Of a DNA stretch of 33,633 bases, positions 9,018 to 33,629 are shown piece by piece. Origin of the DNA: Desulfuromonas sp. (lineage in GTDB: Bacteria; Desulfobacterota; Desulfuromonadia; Desulfuromonadales; Geopsychrobacteraceae); the NCBI GenBank assembly GCA_002868865.1, contig PKUC01000029.1, forward strand, positions 1 to 33,633, read 5' to 3'. The notes below the pieces were generated by a model. The model saw nothing but the letters and a program-made list of their open reading frames with translations. It was not told where the DNA came from and made no database searches. Numbering within the stretch: the stretch's first letter is position 1; every line of letters begins with the position of its first letter. The translations under genes and the position numbers were made by a program.

Positions 9018-11342
9018 TTAACGGACCGGGGCGGTGACGCCCTTGGGTGCCGGATCCTTGCCCAGCTGACGCATGACCATGATGGTGATCAGCAGAGCCA
9101 GGGCGCAGCCGGTCAACCAGGTTGCGGAGAAGGTCGGATGGCGCGCAAAGGTGGCGAACTGATAGAAGGCGGTGGCCGCGGTGTAGGCCAGCCCCGTGGT
9201 CCAGCCAGCGATAAACAGGGTCCAGCGCAGATTCGTTTCACGGTAGACCGCGGCCATGGCGGCGACGCAGGGGAAGTACATGAGGATAAACAGCATGTAG
9301 GCGATAGCGCCGGCCTTGCCGTCAAACAGCTGCCCCATGGCGCCGAAGGTGCCGGCGTTGACTGCTAATTCTTCGGCGGCGCTGTCGGCTGAACTGGTGT
9401 CGCCGATACTCAGGCCGAGGGGGTCGGTCAGGGTGTCGGAGACTGCAATCAGATTATCGGGAACGGTTCGCACCGCTTCGCGTAATGCTTCGGAAAGGCT
9501 GAAGGCTTCCTCTGTACCGTCGGCGGCAGCCTGCTGGGTTTCGTTCTGCAGATAGATCGCATCGAGGGTGCCGACCACGGCTTCTTTGGCGAAGACACCG
9601 GTGAAGATGCCGACGGTGGCCGGCCAGTTATCCTGCGAGATGCCCATCGGGGCAAAGATCGGAGTGATGGTCTGGCTGACCGATGCCAGCAATGACTCTT
9701 TGCTGTCGTCGTGACCGATGGTGCCGTCGATCGACATGGTATTGAGCAGAGCGAGGAGAGCGACCATCGGGATCAGGATCCGGCTGGCTTTGAGCAGGAA
9801 CGACTTGAGCCGGTCCCAGGTGCGCAGCAGGACCGATTTGAGTGTGGGGACATGATAGGGTGGCAACTCCATGACAAAGGGAGTGATGTCGCCTTTGAGC
9901 AGGGTGTGCTTGAGGATCATCCCGGTGAGGACCGCAAACGCGATGCCGGCCAGGTAGAGCAGAAAGACCACATTCTGACCGCCGACCGGAAAGAAGGCCG
10001 CGGCGAACAGGGCGTAGACCGGCAGTCGGGCTCCGCAGCTCATAAAGGGGTTCATCATGATGGTCAGGGTGCGGTCTCTCTGGTTTTCGAGTGTACGGGT
10101 CGCCATGATCGCCGGGACGTTACAGCCGAAGCCGACCAGCAGAGGGACGAACGATTTGCCCGGCAGGCCGAGCATCCGCATGAAGCGGTCCATGACGAAC
10201 GCGGCGCGGGCCATGTAGCCCGACCCTTCCAGGACTGCGAGGGCGAGGAACATGAAGCCGATCGGTGGGATGAAGGTAGAGACGGTTTGAATGCCGCCGC
10301 CGATCCCCGTTGCGAGGACACCGATCATCCAGGCGGGGGCGTTCAATCCGGTGAGGAGCTCGCTCATGCCGTCGACGAAGACGGCGCCGACGGCGATATC
10401 GAAAAAGTCGATAAAGGCCCCGCCGACGTTGATGGTAAACATGAAGGTCAGGTACATCATCAGCAGAAAGATCGGCAGGCCGAGGGCGCGGTTCAGCACC
10501 ACCTTGTCGATCCGGTCGGTCCAGGTTCTGCCGACCTTGGTGGTGTGGGTGACGGTCTGCTCGGTGAGCCAGTGGATAAAGCCGTAACGGGCGTCGGCGA
10601 TGGCGATATCGGCATCTTCATCCAGTGCCGCAGCGATATTGTCCTGCAGGGTCGTTAGCTGTGTCTTGACTTCGGGGTCGAGGATCGAAACGAATTCGGC
10701 ATCATCTTCGAGCAGCTTCATCGCCAGCCAGTGTGGGTCAACGGACAGGCGGCGGGCCGGTTCGTCCAGTTGAGGGACGAGCTGTGTGGCGGCCTCCTGG
10801 ATTTCGACAGGATAGACTACGTCGGTGGCCGGGTCGGGATTCTGCTCGGCGCAGGTGTGCACGGTGCGCTTGAACAATGCCAGACCGCTCCGTTTGGATG
10901 CCGAGACCGGGATGACCGGCACACCCAATCGACCGGAGAGCTCGTCGACATCGATCTTGATCTGACGGGACTTAGCGACGTCCATCTTGTTGAGGACGAC
11001 GATCATCGGCACGCGCATCTCTAGCAATTGGGTGGTCAGGTAGAGGTTGCGCTCGATATTGGCGGCATCAACGATGTTGACGATCAGGTCGTACTGCTTT
11101 GACAGCAGGAAGTCGCGGGCCACTTTTTCGTCGCTGGAATGGGCCGACAGGGCGTAGATGCCCGGGATGTCGACCAGCTCGAAGTCGTGCCCTTCAAAGG
11201 AATAGGCGCCGGTTTTGCGGTCGACGGTTACGCCGGGCCAGTTGCCGACCATCTGACGGGACCCTGTCAGTTCGTTGAACAGGGTGGTCTTGCCGCAATT
11301 GGGATTGCCGGCCACGGCGATCTTGAGTCGTTGTTTCTGCAT
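9018..11342 (-). CDS. feoB: Ferrous iron transport protein B
   Basis: The 774-residue protein has the usual FeoB plan. The N-terminal G domain shows G1 GNPNCGKT (12-19), G2 Thr39, G3 DIPG (58-61) and G4 NKMD (118-121), with a VSASKRSG G5. A helical GDI-like domain follows, then the membrane region with the two Gate motifs (PFMSCGARLPVY and FPCVAAMA) and conserved LVGFGCNVPA. It moves Fe2+ across the inner membrane. The ATG at 11342 is chosen because AAGGA lies about 8-10 bases upstream and an upstream TTG (11366) would overlap feoA; the G domain also begins at the usual distance. feoA ends four bases upstream. Regulation is probably by Fur through the box before feoA. Confidence 0.96.
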   Translation of the reverse strand: MQKQRLKIAVAGNPNCGKTTLFNELTGSRQMVGNWPGVTVDRKTGAYSFEGHDFELVDIPGIYALSAHSSDEKVARDFLLSKQYDLIVNIVDAANIERNLYLTTQLLEMRVPMIVVLNKMDVAKSRQIKIDVDELSGRLGVPVIPVSASKRSGLALFKRTVHTCAEQNPDPATDVVYPVEIQEAATQLVPQLDEPARRLSVDPHWLAMKLLEDDAEFVSILDPEVKTQLTTLQDNIAAALDEDADIAIADARYGFIHWLTEQTVTHTTKVGRTWTDRIDKVVLNRALGLPIFLLMMYLTFMFTINVGGAFIDFFDIAVGAVFVDGMSELLTGLNAPAWMIGVLATGIGGGIQTVSTFIPPIGFMFLALAVLEGSGYMARAAFVMDRFMRMLGLPGKSFVPLLVGFGCNVPAIMATRTLENQRDRTLTIMMNPFMSCGARLPVYALFAAAFFPVGGQNVVFLLYLAGIAFAVLTGMILKHTLLKGDITPFVMELPPYHVPTLKSVLLRTWDRLKSFLLKASRILIPMVALLALLNTMSIDGTIGHDDSKESLLASVSQTITPIFAPMGISQDNWPATVGIFTGVFAKEAVVGTLDAIYLQNETQQAAADGTEEAFSLSEALREAVRTVPDNLIAVSDTLTDPLGLSIGDTSSADSAAEELAVNAGTFGAMGQLFDGKAGAIAYMLFILMYFPCVAAMAAVYRETNLRWTLFIAGWTTGLAYTAATAFYQFATFARHPTFSATWLTGCALALLITIMVMRQLGKDPAPKGVTAPVR

Positions 11343-11346
11343 GGGC

Positions 11347-11583
11347 TTAATTCCTTCTGTCGACAAGGACGGTGGCGGCTTCTGCTCTACGCAGACTGAG
11401 GGAAAAACCGCGGACGCTGATTTCGAGCGGGTCCCCTAAGGGGGCAACCCGCGTGATCTGGAGTTCGATCCCTTTGGTAAGACCCATGGCCAGCAGTTTG
11501 GCGCGATAGGCGCGTTTGCCCTCTGTGAAACCGCTGACAACGGCTTTTTCGCCAACGGAGAGTTGTCCCAGATGTGTTTCCAT
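11347..11583 (-). CDS. feoA: Ferrous iron transport protein A
   Basis: This 78-residue SH3-like protein has the FeoA family core: LGQLSVGEKAVVSGF, RAKLLAMGLTKGIELQI and GDPLEISVRGFSLSLRRAEA. FeoA is a small cytoplasmic partner required for FeoB-dependent Fe2+ uptake. The start is set by AGGAG eight bases upstream. It is the first gene of the run feoA-feoB-feoC-dmeF, with the Fur box 36-52 bases upstream of its start codon. Confidence 0.94.
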   Translation of the reverse strand: METHLGQLSVGEKAVVSGFTEGKRAYRAKLLAMGLTKGIELQITRVAPLGDPLEISVRGFSLSLRRAEAATVLVDRRN

Positions 11584-12474: not shown

Positions 12475-13713
12475 ATGTCCTTTTCTTCGCGTCTGCCATG
12501 TCATTACGCCTGGGTGATCGTCGGCTGCGGTATCCTCACCCTGTTTTCCTGTTTAGGGCTGGCCCGCTTCGCTTACGGAATGCTGCTGCCGGGGATGCGT
12601 GCCGGACTGGGGCTGGCCTATGATCAGATGGGTTACATCAGCACTGGAAACTTTGTCGGCTATCTGCTGGCCGTCGGTCTGGCCCCGTTTGCGCTGCGCC
12701 GTTTTAAACCACGGATGTTGATGGCTCTAGCTCTGACCTTGATTGCAATGTGTATGGCGGGGATTGCGCAAAGCGATGGGTATGTGACGATTGTGTTGCT
12801 GTACAGCTTGACCGGAGTCGGCAGTGGTTTTGCCAATATTCCGGTGATGGTGCTGGTGTCACACTGGTTCCGTCGTGAGCGGCGCGGGCGGGCCGCCGGC
12901 CTGATGGTGGTGGGCAATGGTGCAGCAATCGTCTTCTCCGGGTTCTTTATCCCCTACCTGAATCAGATGTTTGCCGCACAGGGGTGGCGGATCGGCTGGG
13001 CGGCACTGGCGGCGATTACGCTCTGTGTTGCTTGTGTTGTCGCCACGCTGGTTCGGAACGATCCGCAGGATATGGAACTGACTCCGCTGGGGAACAAACA
13101 GGCGGTCGATGTCGGAGACCTGACCATCGGGATACCGAGTAATGGCGGGCGCATTGTCCTGTTTCTGGGGGTGTTGTACCTGGTGTTTGGTGCCACCTAC
13201 ATGGTGTACGGTACCTTTATCGTGACGACGATGGTCGAGGAGTTCGGCTTTGCAGAGGCCACCGCAGGCATGTTCTGGTCCTGGGTCGGATTCTTCAGCC
13301 TCTTCTCCGGGGTCTCCTTCGGCATGCTGTCTGATCGCATCGGCCGACGTGGCGGTATAATGGCGGTCTTTTGTGTCCAGACCTGCGCGTATCTGCTGGC
13401 CGGCTCAGATTTCGGCACAGCAGCGCTGCTCGCCTCGGTCGTCCTCTATGGGCTGTCCGCCTGGGCTATTCCTGCGATTATGGGCGCTGCGGTGGCTGAC
13501 TACATGGGGGTCAGCAAGGCTGCCGCGGCATTTTCAACTGTGACCTTCTTCTTTGCCTTCGGCCAGACTTTGGGGCCGGGCACCGCTGGTTTGATCGCCG
13601 ATGCCACCGGCAGTTTTGCGACCAGCTATCTCTGTTCCGCCGCACTGACCGCAGCGGCGATTATCATGGCTCTGTTTTTGCCACGACCCGCCTGTAAAAA
13701 TACCCCTTTCTGA
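12475..13713 (+). CDS. MFS transporter (YbfB/YjiJ-like)
   Basis: The 412-residue protein has about twelve hydrophobic segments in two halves. The N-terminal HYAWVIVGCGILTLFSCLGLARFAYG region, with GLARFAYGMLLPGM, resembles the YbfB/YjiJ group of the major facilitator superfamily. The inter-TM2/3 motif is weak (LRRFKPRML); the second-half copy is clear (GMLSDRIGRRGG). The start ATG lies four bases after the LysE-family stop, with GGAG about 10 bases upstream. Substrate is unknown. Co-transcription with an amino-acid exporter suggests an export or exchange role for small organic molecules, which is inference. Confidence 0.82.
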   Translation: MSFSSRLPCHYAWVIVGCGILTLFSCLGLARFAYGMLLPGMRAGLGLAYDQMGYISTGNFVGYLLAVGLAPFALRRFKPRMLMALALTLIAMCMAGIAQSDGYVTIVLLYSLTGVGSGFANIPVMVLVSHWFRRERRGRAAGLMVVGNGAAIVFSGFFIPYLNQMFAAQGWRIGWAALAAITLCVACVVATLVRNDPQDMELTPLGNKQAVDVGDLTIGIPSNGGRIVLFLGVLYLVFGATYMVYGTFIVTTMVEEFGFAEATAGMFWSWVGFFSLFSGVSFGMLSDRIGRRGGIMAVFCVQTCAYLLAGSDFGTAALLASVVLYGLSAWAIPAIMGAAVADYMGVSKAAAAFSTVTFFFAFGQTLGPGTAGLIADATGSFATSYLCSAALTAAAIIMALFLPRPACKNTPF

Positions 13714-14064
13714 CAGAATTAAAAAACCCCTCTTTATTCAAAAAACACTATGTAAAAAAGTAGGTTAGCACGACTTGCAACTGCGCATAAAAGCGCTACC
13801 CTCTAAAAATTAGAATTGAATCGGACGCTTTGGCTGCAAAGTTTGCGGCGAATTATCGATTCTGTGCATTCGATTGTTGTTGTCCTCTTCTATCGTCGGT
13901 TCAGCGGATTCGGATCGACTTCTATCTGGCAAGCAACCTGACCATTACGGCTTATTCGTGATGAGTTTGTGTGCTCTTACAACGAAAGGAAAGGGGGGGT
14001 AAGAAGATTTGATTCCGATGTTCACGTTGTGTGTTGCTGGCTCGTTTTCGGAAAGGAGGTATGT
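13714..14064. other. 351-base leader upstream of the porin-cytochrome operon
   Basis: No gene is visible here. The first ~80 bases are AT-rich, but no good terminator for the upstream MFS gene was found. A near-perfect inverted repeat is at 13833-13849 (separate entry). A small GCGC-ATAAAA-GCGC hairpin lies near 13787-13800. No confident sigma70 or sigma54 promoter was identified, and the c-di-GMP/cGAMP riboswitch core expected before some electron-transfer genes in related bacteria was not recognised. The last bases hold the strong AAAGGAGGT ribosome binding site of the porin gene. Confidence 0.5.
13833..13849. promoter_or_regulatory. Inverted repeat, possible operator
   Basis: GCTGCAAA-G-TTTGCGGC is an 8+1+8 inverted repeat with one mismatch, about 215 bases upstream of the porin start. 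It could be a regulator site for the cytochrome operon. No known consensus was recognised. Confidence 0.3.
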
Positions 14065-15297
14065 ATGAGAATGTGGCTGAAGGCAGCCTTGCCGCTGGTC
14101 ACCCTGTGTCTGACTTTTGGGTTCGTTTCACAGGCACTGGCGGTCACGGTGTCGGGGCGGACCAGTACTGTTCTGGAATGGTTCGACACGGCAGAGGAAG
14201 AGACGGCAGTGCCGCTCTATCAGTATCTGAATTTGAATGTCACCAATATTGCGGACAAGGGATGGCATCTTCGTAGTTACGGCCGGTTGTCTGGCGATCT
14301 CAACGATGAGGTTGATGCGGACTCCAGACTTTATTACGTGTATCTTCAAAAGCGTAACTTGCTGAAAAAGCTTGATCTGAAGCTGGGCCGCCAATTTATC
14401 ATCACGGCAGCAGGTGCCAGTTTGGTGGACGGAATTTATCTTGACTATCGGAATCTCGGATTGGTTAATCTGGCATTTTTTGGTGGTGGGGATGCAACTT
14501 TTTACGATGGATACCATGCTGATGATACGGTCATTGGTGGGGAACTCTATGGTCAGTTCTTCGGAACGTTGGCTGCCAGTATTTCGTACATGCAAAAGTG
14601 GGATCAAGGAGATCTGTCCCATGAACTTCTTGGTTTGGACCTTGAGTATGACGTGAGAGAGCTTGACGTTTACAGCGAGACCCAATTTAGCTGGTTGACG
14701 GACGAAGTAACTTATTTTGTGTTGGGTGGAAACTACCAGCCAAATACAAAGTGGACCCTCAATACGGAATATCTCTATTCTTTGCCGGTTTTCTCATCAA
14801 CATCAATCTATTCGGTGTTTGCTGTTGATGAGTATCAAGAGCTCTCTCTGGAGGCAAACTTCCGAATCGACAATGGTTTCAATGCTTTTGGGCGTTATGT
14901 TCATGAATATTACGAAAGCGTGGATGATGCCAATGTCTTTGAGGCGGGTATCGAAAAATTGCGTACTTTGAATTTCTCTGGCTATTTGATCGGGACCTAC
15001 CGTGGTGACGATGATGGACAGGATCTTTACGGTGCCAAGGCCTATGCCGCATACCTGTTTTCTCCTAAGGCAGAGGCGGGTATTGGTTTTCATTATGACG
15101 TGCTTGAAAGAGAGCTTGGCTTTATCTCTGATGGGACAGACTCTCGTGTCGATGATACGACCAGTCAGCGGTACTGGATCGATGCAACAACCTACATAAC
15201 CCCCAAACTGAATGTGCAGGGCAAACTGGAGTATGTCCAGAGCGATCTCTGGGATGAATATACTCGCGGCCGTGTTCGCCTGAACATTCTCTTCTGA
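14065..15297 (+). CDS. Outer-membrane beta-barrel porin of an electron conduit
   Basis: The 410-residue precursor has a clear signal peptide (MRMWLKAALPLVTLCLTFG...SQALA). The mature part is rich in alternating hydrophobic/aromatic strands with short turns (YLNLNVTNIADKGWHLRSYG, LDLKLGRQFIITAAG, FNAFGRYVHEYYES, LNVQGKLEYVQSD). It ends in RVRLNILF, with the terminal Phe expected of BAM-inserted barrels. No cytochrome motif is present. It is followed 14 bases later by a periplasmic 10-haem cytochrome and then by a lipoprotein 13-haem cytochrome, the arrangement of porin-cytochrome complexes such as OmbB-OmaB-OmcB in Geobacter. It should sheath cytochromes so that electrons cross the outer membrane. 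The start at 14065 is set by AAAGGAGGT; a longer upstream frame lacks a signal peptide. Confidence 0.85.
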   Translation: MRMWLKAALPLVTLCLTFGFVSQALAVTVSGRTSTVLEWFDTAEEETAVPLYQYLNLNVTNIADKGWHLRSYGRLSGDLNDEVDADSRLYYVYLQKRNLLKKLDLKLGRQFIITAAGASLVDGIYLDYRNLGLVNLAFFGGGDATFYDGYHADDTVIGGELYGQFFGTLAASISYMQKWDQGDLSHELLGLDLEYDVRELDVYSETQFSWLTDEVTYFVLGGNYQPNTKWTLNTEYLYSLPVFSSTSIYSVFAVDEYQELSLEANFRIDNGFNAFGRYVHEYYESVDDANVFEAGIEKLRTLNFSGYLIGTYRGDDDGQDLYGAKAYAAYLFSPKAEAGIGFHYDVLERELGFISDGTDSRVDDTTSQRYWIDATTYITPKLNVQGKLEYVQSDLWDEYTRGRVRLNILF

Positions 15298-15311
15298 TAA
15301 GGAGGTACAGA

Positions 15312-16136
15312 ATGCTTCGTATTCTTTTCGTCATCCTGGCCTTCGCTCTTTTGGGGAGTGCCCCGGCGCTGGCTGTTACTTTTAATCATTCGGAACACAA
15401 CACATACACGATGGATTCCCCCTGTACGACCTGTCATGTAGAGGACGCTTTCAGTATCGTCCCTGACAAGGAAGTGTGCACGGCGTGCCATGATGATTCT
15501 TTTGCCAAAGACGTGCAGTATCCGGCGTTGAAGACCCATAGGCCACTGTGGGCTTTTAAACACCGAACTGTGGCAAAAGGCAACAGTATCGATTGCACTG
15601 TCTGTCATCAACAGAAAGATTGTCTAGAGTGTCATCAGGCCGGTTTTGCCGATGAACAAGGGTCTTTTGGCAATAATTTAGCGAATGTTCATCGCGGAGA
15701 TTTTCAGGTCAGTCATCCGATTGCCGCACGGACCGATCCGCAGTTGTGCAGTAGCTGTCACGAAAATAAATTCTGCAGCGAATGTCATGACAGCTTCAAT
15801 CGGAATGATCTGGCCTTCGATTCGCATCGCAAAGGGTGGAGTCGTTTGACGGCTGGGGCTGTTAATGCTGCCCATGAGTCCTTTACGGATGCTCAATGCG
15901 TCGGGTGTCATCCCGGCTCAACGGTTCTTGGCGGACATTGGACGTCAGATCATGCCCGGGAAGCGCGTAAAAATTTAGCAACCTGTCAGGCATGTCATCC
16001 GGAAGGAGACGTTTGCTTGCCATGTCACAGTGCAAGGAGTGGGCTCAAGGCCAACCCACATCCTGATGACTGGGGAGATCTTAGCAGCAGACTACAAAAA
16101 GCCAGTGGCGGCAAAAGTTGTCGCAAGTGCCACTAA
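15312..16136 (+). CDS. Periplasmic decahaem c-type cytochrome
   Basis: The 274-residue precursor has a cleavable signal peptide (ending APALA, residues 17-21) and ten CxxCH haem sites, at residues 38, 56, 95, 104, 146, 155, 196, 225, 235 and 270. The last motif, CRKCH, is the extreme C-terminus. Additional His residues (HSEH, KTHRPLW, HRGD, SHP, HWTSDH) can be distal ligands. It would sit at the periplasmic mouth of the porin and pass electrons outward, the role of OmaB-type proteins, which usually carry eight haems; ten here is a difference. Paired motifs spaced nine residues apart (95/104, 146/155) suggest packed haem dimers. GGAGG precedes the start, and the lipoprotein cytochrome follows after 26 bases. 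Confidence 0.93.
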   Translation: MLRILFVILAFALLGSAPALAVTFNHSEHNTYTMDSPCTTCHVEDAFSIVPDKEVCTACHDDSFAKDVQYPALKTHRPLWAFKHRTVAKGNSIDCTVCHQQKDCLECHQAGFADEQGSFGNNLANVHRGDFQVSHPIAARTDPQLCSSCHENKFCSECHDSFNRNDLAFDSHRKGWSRLTAGAVNAAHESFTDAQCVGCHPGSTVLGGHWTSDHAREARKNLATCQACHPEGDVCLPCHSARSGLKANPHPDDWGDLSSRLQKASGGKSCRKCH

Positions 16137-16162
16137 ATAGACGATTATAAGGAGGTTACACC

Positions 16163-18922
16163 ATGCGAAAGAAATTATTTGGTTTGCTCGCTCTGGTTAC
16201 GGTGGCCCTACTGACACTTGGAGGCTGCAGTAGTAATCGTGATTCGGATAGCATCTCTGCAGCAGCAGATACAGTTGAGGATGTTCTGCGCGCTACCGCT
16301 TATGTCGGTGCTGATCGTTGTAGTGGATGCCATGAAACACTCCATGAAGGTTGGGCTGATTCTGCTCACACCAAGAAGCTGCGAGATGGCAGCCTTGAGG
16401 CCAACTATTCCAATGACGGCGATTTTTCAGGCCGTTCGGATTTTTTTGACGATGGTTGTTCCGAGGGAAATGGGCTTAACCTTGGTGAAGCCGCATTCTC
16501 TACAGCATTTGCTAAATTCGGAGCCGATGCCCCCATTCTGTGTAGTGAAGGTGGACAAGCATACGTAAAGATCGGCGATGACAGCTATGCCATTACCTAC
16601 ACACTGGGCGGTGGAGGCCATGATGATGTACCGCTGGGAGGAGATGGTGATGGTTTCGTTTTGAACGATGAAGCCACCTGGAAGCAGCGTTATATTACTA
16701 CCGATGGAAAGAGTAATTATATTCTCCCGGTTCAGTTCAATCAACAGACTCAGGAATACGTGACCTACCACGCCGAAGATTGGTACGATGACGAAAATTC
16801 TCCACTTGCTGAGCGTATCAAGAATCAGTCCTACGAACGCCGTTGCGCTGGTTGTCATGTGACCGGTCTTCAGGTTGCATTGGACGGCGACGAATGGACG
16901 ATGAAGTTTTCAGATATTTCTGTCGCCTGTGAAGCCTGTCACGGTCCGGGTGGTCAGCACTCCACCACTCCGAGCAAAGAGAACATCATTAACCCTGCCA
17001 CGATGATTGCCGCCACCGATCTTAACGACGATGGCGAAGTTGATCAGATAGACAACCTGATTATTCGTAACTATGTGTGTTATGCCTGTCATACTCGGGG
17101 TAGTGGATATGCCAGTGCTGCTGCTGGCACCTCGCTTGGCTATCCGAGCAAGGGCGGCAGCGACGACAATATTACGATGTATATCCCGGGACTGGACTGG
17201 AGAGAATATTACAACGTGACAGAAAGTACCGGTTCTTATTGGGGAGGAACACCTTCGACCGGGTTTATAGCGTCCAAACAGCATCATCAGCAGCAGCAAG
17301 ATCTCGACAAAGGGCCCCACGCACCGGACAAATCCTACGATCATGAGTGTTTTGTCTGTCATGATATGCACAAGCCGGATACCAGTATGGTGGTTTCAAC
17401 CATTGAATCTGATGGGCTTGAGATTGAAGTAGAGGATCCGGATGACAACGATCTTTGCCTCTCTTGTCATGCGACCCATGGAGATTTCGAAGAGATAGAT
17501 GCGTTTGATGTCAAGACCGGTGCAGATGTGGTTGAAGAGGCTGTGATTGCGCATATGGCCAAACAGTCTGGAAAATCTCGTACGAAAGACTTGGACTGCA
17601 CCGGTTGCCATATGCCAAAGATGTCGAAATCGGCGATCTGGGTTGAAAAGGATACCGGTGAAGTCGATGATGCGGGTGAACCAATTATGGAAGTGATTGG
17701 TGGTGATGTGTCGGCCCATACCTTCGAGATTGTCTGGCCGAATCTGTCGGTTGTTAACTCCGGTATGCCCAATTCGTGTAACCGTTGTCATAATGGTGGC
17801 GGCGAAGACGATCCCCTCAGCGATGAGAGTGAGAAAGACAATGGCACCCTCATCATCCGTGACTGGTCCAATTCGGGTCATGGTGATTCAACCTCGGGAG
17901 CCTTTAACTCGGGGTTTGCACAGAGTAGTTCCAGCTGTAACTATTGCCACACCGCCAAAGGCGCCAGAAATCACTTTAACGAGTTGATCGATGATACCTT
18001 TGAAGCTGAAGGATTTGCAGCGGATCCGGGTGATGCACATTATTGCTATGCCTGTCACAGTGATGTGGCCAATGACGATGGCTTCGGGATGAAGCCGTAT
18101 GCTCCTGGTGCGATTGTTGCCGATTACGCCGCCGCAGGGACCGCAAAGACAGCCGCTGTGTTTGATGATCTTGGTACTTCCAATATTTGCGTTAGTTGTC
18201 ACTCAGGTAAGCGCAGCGGGCAGGACATTAAAGATGGGACCAATGTGCTTGAAGCGCGAGTCACTTCGCATTATGCCGCAGTTGCGGGGGTCATTTACAA
18301 TAAGATCAGTTATCAGTTTACGGGTCAGGTTTATGACTCAACTGGCCATGGATCGATCGGAAATGGCGCCGGGCCGTGCGTAGGGTGCCATATGGAAGAG
18401 AGTACCCATACGTTCCTGCCGTTTGACGAGGAAAGCGATACTGGCTTGGTCAGCATCTGTGCAGAATGCCACGGAGATTCCATGACTGCCGATGGCCTTG
18501 CTTCTCGTGAAGTGAACTATGCCTCCGCATTGGCCGTTTTGGGGCAAATCATGGCGGATCAGGGGATTACTATCGGTGGTGATGGCGTTAAGGTCGACGG
18601 TGTTATTACGACTGATCTGGATCTGGCTGGTTCTGCCTTCAACTACAAGCTGTTGAAGGATCACACCAGCGGTTATGTCCACAATCGGTATCAGGCTAAG
18701 CAGTTGCTGTTTGACAGCATGTTCTATCTGTTGAATATCGGAAGCGTACCGGCTGCTCCTTGGCTGGAAATGGCCGATGTGACTTTTGGTGAAGTTGCGG
18801 TGGACACGTCTTCGTATGTTGAGGGCGATGATCTCTTTGGACTGACCAGTGAAGAGATTGTGGCCAATGCTGCCGGTTATCTCGATGGTAATGGTCTGAC
18901 GGCAGGTATCCAGAGACGTTAG
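16163..18922 (+). CDS. Outer-membrane lipoprotein multihaem cytochrome (13 haems)
   Basis: The 919-residue precursor has a lipoprotein signal (LTLGGC, lipidated Cys22). It contains thirteen CxxCH motifs, at residues 53, 228, 256, 306, 396, 432, 479, 539, 592, 628, 676, 739 and 766. A haem-free insert separates haems 1 and 2 (~58-227; it holds Cys99 and Cys127, which could form a disulfide), and residues 771-919 are a haem-free C-terminal domain. An EF-hand/dockerin-like loop, DLNDDGEVDQID (286-297), lies between haems 3 and 4. The protein is acidic and Gly/Asp-rich. With the porin and 10-haem protein it fits the surface cytochrome of a porin-cytochrome conduit (OmcB role), passing electrons to extracellular acceptors. 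AAGGAGG precedes the start. A terminator follows 33 bases after the stop. Confidence 0.93.
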   Translation: MRKKLFGLLALVTVALLTLGGCSSNRDSDSISAAADTVEDVLRATAYVGADRCSGCHETLHEGWADSAHTKKLRDGSLEANYSNDGDFSGRSDFFDDGCSEGNGLNLGEAAFSTAFAKFGADAPILCSEGGQAYVKIGDDSYAITYTLGGGGHDDVPLGGDGDGFVLNDEATWKQRYITTDGKSNYILPVQFNQQTQEYVTYHAEDWYDDENSPLAERIKNQSYERRCAGCHVTGLQVALDGDEWTMKFSDISVACEACHGPGGQHSTTPSKENIINPATMIAATDLNDDGEVDQIDNLIIRNYVCYACHTRGSGYASAAAGTSLGYPSKGGSDDNITMYIPGLDWREYYNVTESTGSYWGGTPSTGFIASKQHHQQQQDLDKGPHAPDKSYDHECFVCHDMHKPDTSMVVSTIESDGLEIEVEDPDDNDLCLSCHATHGDFEEIDAFDVKTGADVVEEAVIAHMAKQSGKSRTKDLDCTGCHMPKMSKSAIWVEKDTGEVDDAGEPIMEVIGGDVSAHTFEIVWPNLSVVNSGMPNSCNRCHNGGGEDDPLSDESEKDNGTLIIRDWSNSGHGDSTSGAFNSGFAQSSSSCNYCHTAKGARNHFNELIDDTFEAEGFAADPGDAHYCYACHSDVANDDGFGMKPYAPGAIVADYAAAGTAKTAAVFDDLGTSNICVSCHSGKRSGQDIKDGTNVLEARVTSHYAAVAGVIYNKISYQFTGQVYDSTGHGSIGNGAGPCVGCHMEESTHTFLPFDEESDTGLVSICAECHGDSMTADGLASREVNYASALAVLGQIMADQGITIGGDGVKVDGVITTDLDLAGSAFNYKLLKDHTSGYVHNRYQAKQLLFDSMFYLLNIGSVPAAPWLEMADVTFGEVAVDTSSYVEGDDLFGLTSEEIVANAAGYLDGNGLTAGIQRR

Positions 18923-18954
18923 CGTGATCAGACACGTCTTTAATCTCTTTTCAG

Positions 18955-18982
18955 CCGGGCCCTTCGGGGTCCGGTTTTTTTT
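18955..18982 (+). terminator. Rho-independent terminator of the conduit operon
   Basis: CCGGGCCC-TTCG-GGGTCCGG forms an 8-bp stem (one G-T pair) capped by a stable UUCG tetraloop and followed by eight T (18975-18982). It ends the porin-cytochrome operon and isolates it from the calcium ATPase gene. Confidence 0.92.
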
Positions 18983-33534: not shown

Positions 33535-33629
33535 TGGCGGAGGTAGATGGGAATCGAACCCACCGGGGACGTGAACGCCCCCCATCGGTTTTGAAGACCG
33601 TGAGCGCCACCAGGCTACTAACTACCTCC
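33535..33629 (-). tRNA. selC: tRNA-Sec (anticodon TCA)
   Basis: The 95-base gene includes an encoded CCA (33535-33537). The acceptor stem GGAGGTAG (33629-33622) pairs over eight base pairs with CTACCTCC (33546-33539), the long acceptor typical of bacterial selenocysteine tRNA, with G as discriminator. The anticodon TCA is at 33594-33592 in loop CTTCAAA. The T arm has GGTTCGATTCC, and a long variable arm (GGGGGGCG...CGTCCCC) is present. It inserts selenocysteine at UGA with SelB and a SECIS element. The promoter would lie beyond the right edge, where selA/selB may also be found. Confidence 0.96.

Follow-up and report, generated by a model that had tools for sequence, protein, structure and literature searches.

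A three-gene outer-membrane electron conduit of Desulfuromonas sp., most likely a 10-haem member of the known Pcc family

In a stretch of 33,633 nucleotides from Desulfuromonas sp. (contig PKUC01000029.1, assembly GCA_002868865.1; the whole stretch is hereafter called the window), we analysed a cluster of three genes located at positions 14,065 to 18,922. They encode an outer-membrane beta-barrel, a periplasmic decahaem cytochrome (hereafter the wire) and a surface lipoprotein cytochrome with 13 haems (hereafter the tip). Most likely, the conduit is a member of the known Pcc (OmbB-OmaB-OmcB) family, within a 10-haem branch of Desulfuromonas-like bacteria, and not a new type. What an earlier reading of the same DNA (the original prediction) had proposed as a candidate “new electron-transfer system” is thereby placed in a known and genetically tested family. 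Published work already covers the family, its Desulfuromonas group and the variation in its haem numbers; the one clean comparative result of this otherwise ordinary, well-supported conduit is a haem ladder, i.e., a nested series of wires with 8, 9 and 10 haems.

The comparison with the 8 + 12 type of Geobacteraceae was made through a cluster of Citrifermentans bremense (locus L097), which stands in for Geobacter sulfurreducens and encodes a 404 aa barrel, a 231 aa wire with 8 haems and a 777 aa surface cytochrome with 12 haems. All three proteins of the window matched their counterparts in BLAST: the wire at 33% (E 5e-40), the barrel at 30% (E 3e-43) and the tip at 28% over residues 572-856 (E 4e-18). 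The gene order is the same, the barrels measure about 380 residues from strand 1, and all eight haems of the C. bremense wire lie at matching places in the window's wire. The latter additionally carries haem 1 and haem 7, each with a conserved histidine of its own, while the tip has 13 haems in 919 aa instead of 12 in 777 aa. Eleven of the 12 haems of the C. bremense tip fall on haem columns of the window's tip, a count favoured by the tendency of aligners to place CxxCH on CxxCH. The OmbB-OmaB-OmcB-like architecture named in the original prediction is therefore more than an analogy, as there is significant sequence homology to an 8 + 12 cluster in all three parts.

In published Pcc clusters, the periplasmic cytochrome has 5-14 haems, the outer-membrane member 1-15, and the barrel 18-22 predicted strands (PMC4245776). 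The window presents the family's gene order, with adjacent genes for a barrel, a periplasmic multihaem and an outer-membrane multihaem cytochrome, and the AlphaFold model of its barrel has 22 strands. OmbB-OmaB-OmcB itself is described as an 8 + 12 haem system (PMC4245776), with OmaB as a 25 kDa protein carrying 8 haems (PMC12977616), while the window encodes 10 + 13. Because the published family ranges are as wide as those given above, 8 + 12 is no defining feature. The suggestion that a 10 + 13 composition might mark a distinct conduit type is thus not supported: haem number varies within the family, with wires of 8, 9 and 10 haems among the sequences examined here.

The genes themselves can be read with little ambiguity (Table 1). 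The barrel starts at the ATG at 14065, the mechanical open reading frame (ORF) beginning further upstream at a GTG (13969), and contains 0 CxxCH. The wire carries CxxCH at residues 38, 56, 95, 104, 146, 155, 196, 225, 235 and 270, the tenth motif forming its very C-terminus (...CRKCH-stop). In the lipoprotein, which has the lipobox TLGGC, the motifs lie at 53, 228, 256, 306, 396, 432, 479, 539, 592, 628, 676, 739 and 766. In 2000 residue shuffles per protein, the mean number of motifs was 0.11 (maximum 2) and 0.03 (maximum 1), against the far higher 10 and 13 of the real proteins, and across the window no CxxCH was present in other stop-to-stop frames of more than 60 codons. The ORFs, the motif positions and the shuffles bear out the predicted set of a barrel, a decahaem protein ending on its tenth CxxCH and a 13-CxxCH lipoprotein.

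A strong Shine-Dalgarno sequence precedes each of the three genes, and the spacers between them are of 14 and 26 bases. Just beyond the last gene, a hairpin followed by a T-run reaches -19.1 kcal/mol (z = -4.7), and 0/200 shuffles were equally good. Spacing and hairpin are consistent with a single predicted operon closed by a strong terminator, as originally proposed. The terminator is called because of fold energy and position, and not from the consensus scan, which showed no excess in the region of either terminator-like sites (5, shuffle mean 4.8) or promoters (5, against 6.4 in shuffles). Cyclic-dinucleotide riboswitches precede some Geobacter cytochrome genes; upstream of the barrel gene, an Rfam search of positions 13700-14080 returned a single chance-level match at E <= 10.

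Table 1. Features of the conduit operon in the window.
Feature	Coordinates	Strand	Basis
Shine-Dalgarno AAGGAGG ahead of the barrel gene	14053..14059	+	sequence read directly
Outer-membrane beta-barrel, OmbB-like, 410 aa with signal peptide	14065..15297	+	ORF reading, AlphaFold 22 strands, upstream position in relatives' operons
Periplasmic decahaem wire cytochrome, OmaB-like, 274 aa, signal peptide	15312..16136	+	CxxCH count, alignment, homology
Outer-membrane lipoprotein cytochrome, OmcB-like, 919 aa, 13 CxxCH	16163..18922	+	ORF reading, lipobox, homology
Intrinsic terminator closing the operon: hairpin 18953-18976 + T-run	18953..18982	+	fold energy, position

Ten haems are also found in MtrA, which raises the question of whether the conduit belongs to the MtrCAB family. 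Pfam and NCBIfam give the cytochromes generic multihaem domains alone, some of them under cut-off. The Pfam Mtrc-MtrF domain II/IV (cut-off 30) is above threshold in both the lipoprotein (50.8 bits) and the wire (34.4 bits), while TIGR03508 (DmsE-type, cut-off 192), which we take to cover MtrA, matches weakly the lipoprotein (31.6 bits) and the 8-haem wire of a relative (23.3 bits). The window's own wire is unlisted for this model at E <= 1, so that it does not appear as an MtrA/DmsE-family decahaem protein. For the barrel, no model was listed at E <= 1 in Pfam and NCBIfam, which presumably include the MtrB/PioB models. A profile of the wire matched three multihaem proteins in the PDB (E 1.7e-4 to 0.0065), touching MtrF (3pmq) at E 0.005. 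Weighing these matches and the shared haem number, we consider an MtrCAB-family conduit extremely improbable: the Mtr-type matches concern haem-packing modules common to many multihaem proteins, the 22 predicted strands contrast with the 28 predicted for the MtrB family (PMC4245776), and wire and barrel share a family with 8- and 9-haem Geobacteraceae members. What the Pcc-type conduit has in common with MtrCAB of Shewanella is the working principle, a barrel plus a 10-haem wire plus a surface multihaem cytochrome; barrel family, barrel size and wire family differ.

The Ext conduits (ExtABCD, ExtEFG and ExtHIJKL) are described with the periplasmic 12-haem ExtA or ExtG and pentahaem lipoproteins, or with the rhodanese-like ExtH (PMC6148476). 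The window differs in haem counts and genes, and on that published description is set apart from them; the ExtKL model gave the lipoprotein 20.6 bits, with a cut-off of 250.

The barrel model is confident (pLDDT 91.9, pTM 0.81), with no plug domain. VIA-align placed TonB-dependent receptor barrels at the top of its matches (Z 21.1, 342 residues, 3.6 Å), and Foldseek placed ushers and OprD-type pores. TonB-dependent receptor barrels have 22 strands. Such fold matches, obtained with a predicted model, probably reflect a closed barrel of about that size and not kinship. MtrB was not among the fold matches, at least 50, listed by each of the two programs, an absence that excludes nothing. At the sequence level, the barrel found nothing in the PDB at E <= 5 and no match among plasmid records, and its profile reached one designed barrel (E 0.26). 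The wire had weak PDB matches only (best E 9e-4), and the lipoprotein matched 6i5b (E 7e-20, best stretch residues 226-378), which we take to be OcwA of Thermincola. The PDB sequence search returned no solved structure of a close relative.

Then, we evaluated the position of the conduit among its relatives. Scanning the contigs of named genomes and keeping the best 80 of 104 confirmed stretches, we obtained 79 loci, a sample in which distant members are under-represented. By title, most of these records belong to Desulfuromonadales or to unspecified Deltaproteobacteria, and the others to further Desulfobacterota, to Nitrospirota and to Geobacteraceae; close relatives occur in named hosts such as Geothermobacter hydrogeniphilus, Pelovirga terrestris and Desulfurivibrio sp. 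None of the best 80 of 104 is titled Geobacter sulfurreducens or Desulfuromonas acetoxidans.

The wire tree comprised 85 wires, after removal of the first 48 residues and of the haem 7 region, and is unrooted. All 46 10-haem rows, including rows titled Desulfuromonas sp., fall on one side of one branch with support 100/100, and the tree needs 4 changes of haem class, against a mean of 33.5 in shuffles. The 8-haem rows do not fall on one side of a branch, and the starred branches force at least 2 changes. These rows are placed among Nitrospirota and Geobacteraceae, each time near 9-haem rows, and therefore haem 7 has changed more than once; in a tree without a root, gain and loss have no direction. 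Bootstrap convergence was almost but not fully reached, and three long rows received a flag. Coherently, in a quick tree of 76 barrels (SH-aLRT support, without bootstrap, and with meeting long branches flagged), the 38 barrels with 10-haem partners lie on one side of a branch with SH-aLRT 100. The 10-haem branch thus appears, from these alignments, to be a well supported, clade-like group.

In Shi et al. 2014, Desulfuromonas acetoxidans, Desulfurivibrio alkaliphilus and Desulfurispirillum indicum make up a Pcc Group II, defined on their porins and periplasmic cytochromes (PMC4245776). Like our 10-haem group, it is based on barrel and periplasmic cytochrome together; furthermore, the 10-haem group contains the Desulfuromonas sp. 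rows, and a Desulfurivibrio row (L073, outside the trees) has the 10-haem form. We infer from the taxa, and not from the three species' own sequences, that Pcc Group II is the 10-haem group. Other publications report complete ombB-omaB-omcB clusters in Desulfuromonas strains AOP6, DDH964 and TF (PMC8235581), OmaB-OmbB-OmcB homologues in Desulfurivibrionaceae genomes (PMC12545173) and OmcB homologues in D. versatilis (PMC8465243), and Shaw et al. 2025 discuss Pcc, Omc and Mtr pathways in Desulfobacterota (PMC12133095). Among genetically studied members, Gmet0908-0910 and Gmet0911-0913 of Geobacter metallireducens are likewise three-gene conduits, lying next to each other and having barrels with 20 predicted strands (PMC11389400). 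Compared by description, they differ from the window in their 9 and 8 periplasmic and 10 and 9 surface haems. The original prediction had named tight clustering with a described conduit as the outcome that would speak against novelty: the window clusters so at the level of the family, and not with any named, tested conduit.

The nested haem numbers were resolved column by column in an alignment of 74 wires (A3), of which 43 have 10 CxxCH, 11 have 9 and 20 have 8. Eight core haems are present in 74/74 wires. Haem 7 (residues 196-200), a mid-chain addition, occurs in 43/43 10-haem and 11/11 9-haem rows and in 0/20 8-haem rows, while haem 1 (residues 38-42), an N-terminal addition, occurs in 43/43 10-haem rows and 0/31 others. 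Two histidines follow the same pattern: His188 is found in 43/43 10-haem, 11/11 9-haem and 1/20 8-haem rows, and His26 in 42/43, 0/11 and 0/20, respectively. Eight other histidine columns are kept in 20/20 8-haem, 11/11 9-haem and 42 or 43/43 10-haem rows. The 74-row alignment omits five of the 79 loci (L063, L073, L086, L087 and L089), whose CxxCH, read directly, number 10, 10, 6 (fragment), 9 and 6 (fragment) and agree with the classes. Alignment A3 also leaves out L083 (fragment), L106 and L108, and alignment A2 leaves out L064, L090, L106 and L108. Finally, in a set of 24 aligned sequences to which the window's belongs, every member has the full ten haems and a CxxCH at its end.

The median length of the wire increases from 231 residues (8 haems) to 257 (9 haems) and 275 (10 haems), while the barrels, measured from strand 1 onwards, keep nearly the same length (medians 380, 379 and 380.5 residues; n=19, 11 and 34). 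By difference of medians, the cassettes would measure about 26 residues (haem 7 with its likely ligand His188) and about 18 (haem 1 with His26), the ligands being assigned from the co-occurrence of histidine and haem columns. The simplest reading of these alignments is that each extra haem may have come or gone together with its second axial ligand in one inserted or deleted stretch. With more doubt than confidence, we suggest that wires grow and shrink by whole haem cassettes at constant barrel length, and that the wire of the 10-haem group differs in function, having an additional haem at the periplasmic entry and another in mid-path. If so, the 10 + 13 puzzle becomes a clean comparison of homologous 8-, 9- and 10-haem wires housed in equally long barrels, and nature would offer a series (8, 9, 10 and perhaps 5) for how haem number sets the rate and potential of trans-membrane electron transfer. 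In the open-licence texts searched, which came without supplements or figures, we came across no description of the nested 8/9/10 series together with its ligands.

The two extra haems in the wire, and the long, fully supported branch that separates the 10-haem proteins in both trees, could instead indicate a truly distinct conduit type, with a mechanism of its own and a superficial resemblance to OmbB-OmaB-OmcB. All parts are homologous, gene order and barrel length are the same and the eight core haems are retained, and we judge a distinct type very unlikely in comparison with a 10-haem branch of the Pcc family.

Two observations touch the ladder. Six loci encode 5-haem proteins of 144-166 aa (L033:3118-7389, L043:1641-4278, L051:3260-6755, L092:16117-18672, L105:13614-14884 and L109:5082-6058), which align at 26-32% with the N-terminal part of the wire (inside residues 1-159). 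They adjoin a 7- to 21-haem protein in 4/6 loci, and those of L033 and L043 adjoin a barrel that matches part of the window's at 25-27% (E 3e-9 and 4e-12); these loci may be a further kind of conduit, extending the ladder to 5. Moreover, L126 and L127 (genomes G133 and G129) each pair an 8-haem conduit with an adjacent 9-haem one, the distance between the wire genes being about 5.4 kb; these genomes are therefore well suited to a comparison of 8- and 9-haem wires.

The level of co-divergence among the three proteins was assessed by Spearman correlation of similarity matrices over 63 complete operons, with 500 permutations. The values were 0.86 for barrel-wire, 0.21 for barrel-tip and 0.17 for wire-tip, with 0/500 permutations as high for each. 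Within the 27 10-haem operons they were 0.71 (0/500), 0.23 (17/500) and 0.13 (68/500), respectively. These correlations suggest that wire and barrel diverge together as a conserved core, and that the tip follows weakly and may be exchangeable. The same conclusion was reached earlier on fewer clusters by Shi et al. 2014 (PMC4245776), and in omcB clusters of Desulfuromonadales the surface lipoprotein is described as replaced and the periplasmic cytochrome as conserved (PMC6148476).

As the partner of a wire we counted whichever ORF of >150 aa came first on the same strand within 700 bases. Complete partners of 10-haem wires (n=34, window included) have 13 haems in 19 cases, 12 in 4, 8 in 4, 7 in 2, 16 in 2, and 6, 10 and 17 in 1 each; 13, which had seemed part of an unusual composition, is thus the commonest count (19/34). 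For 9-haem wires (n=12) the counts are 8 haems (4), 10 (3), 9 (2), 13 (2) and 4 (1). For 8-haem wires (n=26) they are 9 haems (15), 12 (8) and 8 (3), one of the last being the misfiled fragment L083, without which (n=25) they become 15, 8 and 2. L083 begins mid-protein and has 8 CxxCH, so it was tallied as 8-haem in the partner and length counts; it looks like a cut 10-haem member. From these counts, a 12-haem tip is therefore not what 8-haem wires usually have in this sample. In L069, L071 and L072 a second cytochrome comes after an 8-haem ORF; L048 is a broken locus.

The tips closest to the window's are those of L038 (55%) and L036 (43%), matched over nearly full length with all 13 haems in register. 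At L102:7557-12298, an 8-haem wire is joined to a long tip (916 aa, 12 haems) that matches the window's tip at 27% over window residues 1-853, with 12 haems in register; by sequence, this is likely a tip exchange between wire classes. Separately, lipoprotein residues 281-305 resemble a dockerin-like EF-hand-type calcium loop (18.7 bits, under the Pfam cut-off of 22.9). By simple motif search, similar loops occur in L036 and L033, and none in L038 or L102.

As for spread, the decahaem query matches 52/98 genomes (own included) at E <= 1e-5. The best match reaches E <= 1e-40 in 39/98, which are the own genome, 7/43 others of the family and 31/54 others of the order; the sole other genome of the same genus has a weak match only. 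Among 86 operons, a barrel-sized ORF lies immediately upstream of the wire gene in 76 and a haem protein immediately downstream in 78. The 10/86 without a barrel are an upper bound, because ORF picking loses genes to longer antisense or overlapping frames (probably in L034) and at contig ends.

The proposed function follows the other members of the family. We are highly confident that the three genes specify a trans-outer-membrane electron conduit of the Pcc (OmbB-OmaB-OmcB) family, in which a decahaem wire would lie in a 22-strand barrel with a 13-haem tip outside, and electrons would probably flow outward. Quinol oxidation at the inner membrane would feed trihaem (Ppc-type) periplasmic carriers, which would pass electrons to the periplasmic side of the decahaem wire. 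This would act as an insulated haem wire inside the barrel, capped on the outside by the 13-haem lipoprotein; the latter could hand electrons on to Fe(III)/Mn(IV) oxides or an electrode, to another cell, or to an additional cytochrome outside the cell. A trihaem c7-type gene is present in the own genome (contig C81, L144), which consists of 2.66 Mb in 109 contigs and contains 561 CxxCH sites, against 156 for the reversed pattern. Sequence and model establish the genes and their order, the three-part homology to an 8 + 12 cluster, the clade membership, the confidently predicted barrel fold and the c7-type gene; from these, we infer the assembly into a single complex, the place of the wire inside the barrel, the outward flow, the acceptor and the position of haem 1 at the periplasmic entry.

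The same complex could work in reverse or in both directions, with electrons supplied by Fe(II) or sulfide minerals, by a cathode or by a partner cell. Indeed, Pcc clusters are also reported from non-reducers of solid Fe(III) and Mn(IV) oxides (PMC4245776), the family is carried by Nitrospirota and a Desulfurivibrio, and a ferrous-iron transporter gene, feoB, lies at 9018-11366 in the window. We regard electron uptake as unlikely, since tested members of the family act outward (PMC4589669, PMC11389400) and feoB has no match among the ORFs flanking the relatives' conduits, within flanks of at most 9 kb and often shorter.

Some results weigh against the outward-flowing conduit as drawn here. AlphaFold gives a poor model of the wire (pLDDT 61, pTM 0.30), as expected of a protein folded around haems, and the wire's place in the barrel gets no support from it. 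No haem protein was detected immediately downstream in 7/46 10-haem wires. A crude lipobox pattern passes 16/34 complete tips of 10-haem operons, the window's among them, compared with 22/26 in the 8-haem and 7/12 in the 9-haem class; the low rate is partly due to uncertain start codons. In the material examined, we saw no structure, complex or activity of a 10-haem member. Genetic results on G. metallireducens speak in part for the conduit: its two clusters, whose periplasmic cytochromes carry 9 and 8 haems, take part in the reduction of ferrihydrite and anodes and partly in interspecies transfer, with roles described as distinct, overlapping and compensating in ferrihydrite, citrate and anode reduction (PMC11389400). 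Deletion of both, however, restored ferrihydrite and anode reduction (PMC11389400), and therefore the roles of single clusters are hard to read.

The neighbourhood of the conduit is poorly shared. Among the ORFs of L032-L110 and L125-L131, with relatives' flanks limited as above and often cut by contig ends, 15/16 flanking genes have no match at E <= 1e-20; the remaining one, a sigma-54 regulator, has 11 such matches among relatives' loci. One of the window's closest wire relatives (L037) is on a contig labelled as a Gammaproteobacteria metagenome-assembled genome, by misbinning or transfer. Other multihaem clusters of the own genome (G000) are found on C16 (L142:6752-9920, with 14 and 20 CxxCH), C21 (L143:2630-15320, with 5, 16, 26 and 12) and C107 (L146:671-2908, with 25). 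Finally, the sole Rfam match at gathering score in the window is a selenocysteine tRNA gene (33539-33629, minus strand; RF01852, 76.6 bits), and therefore the genome probably makes selenoproteins.

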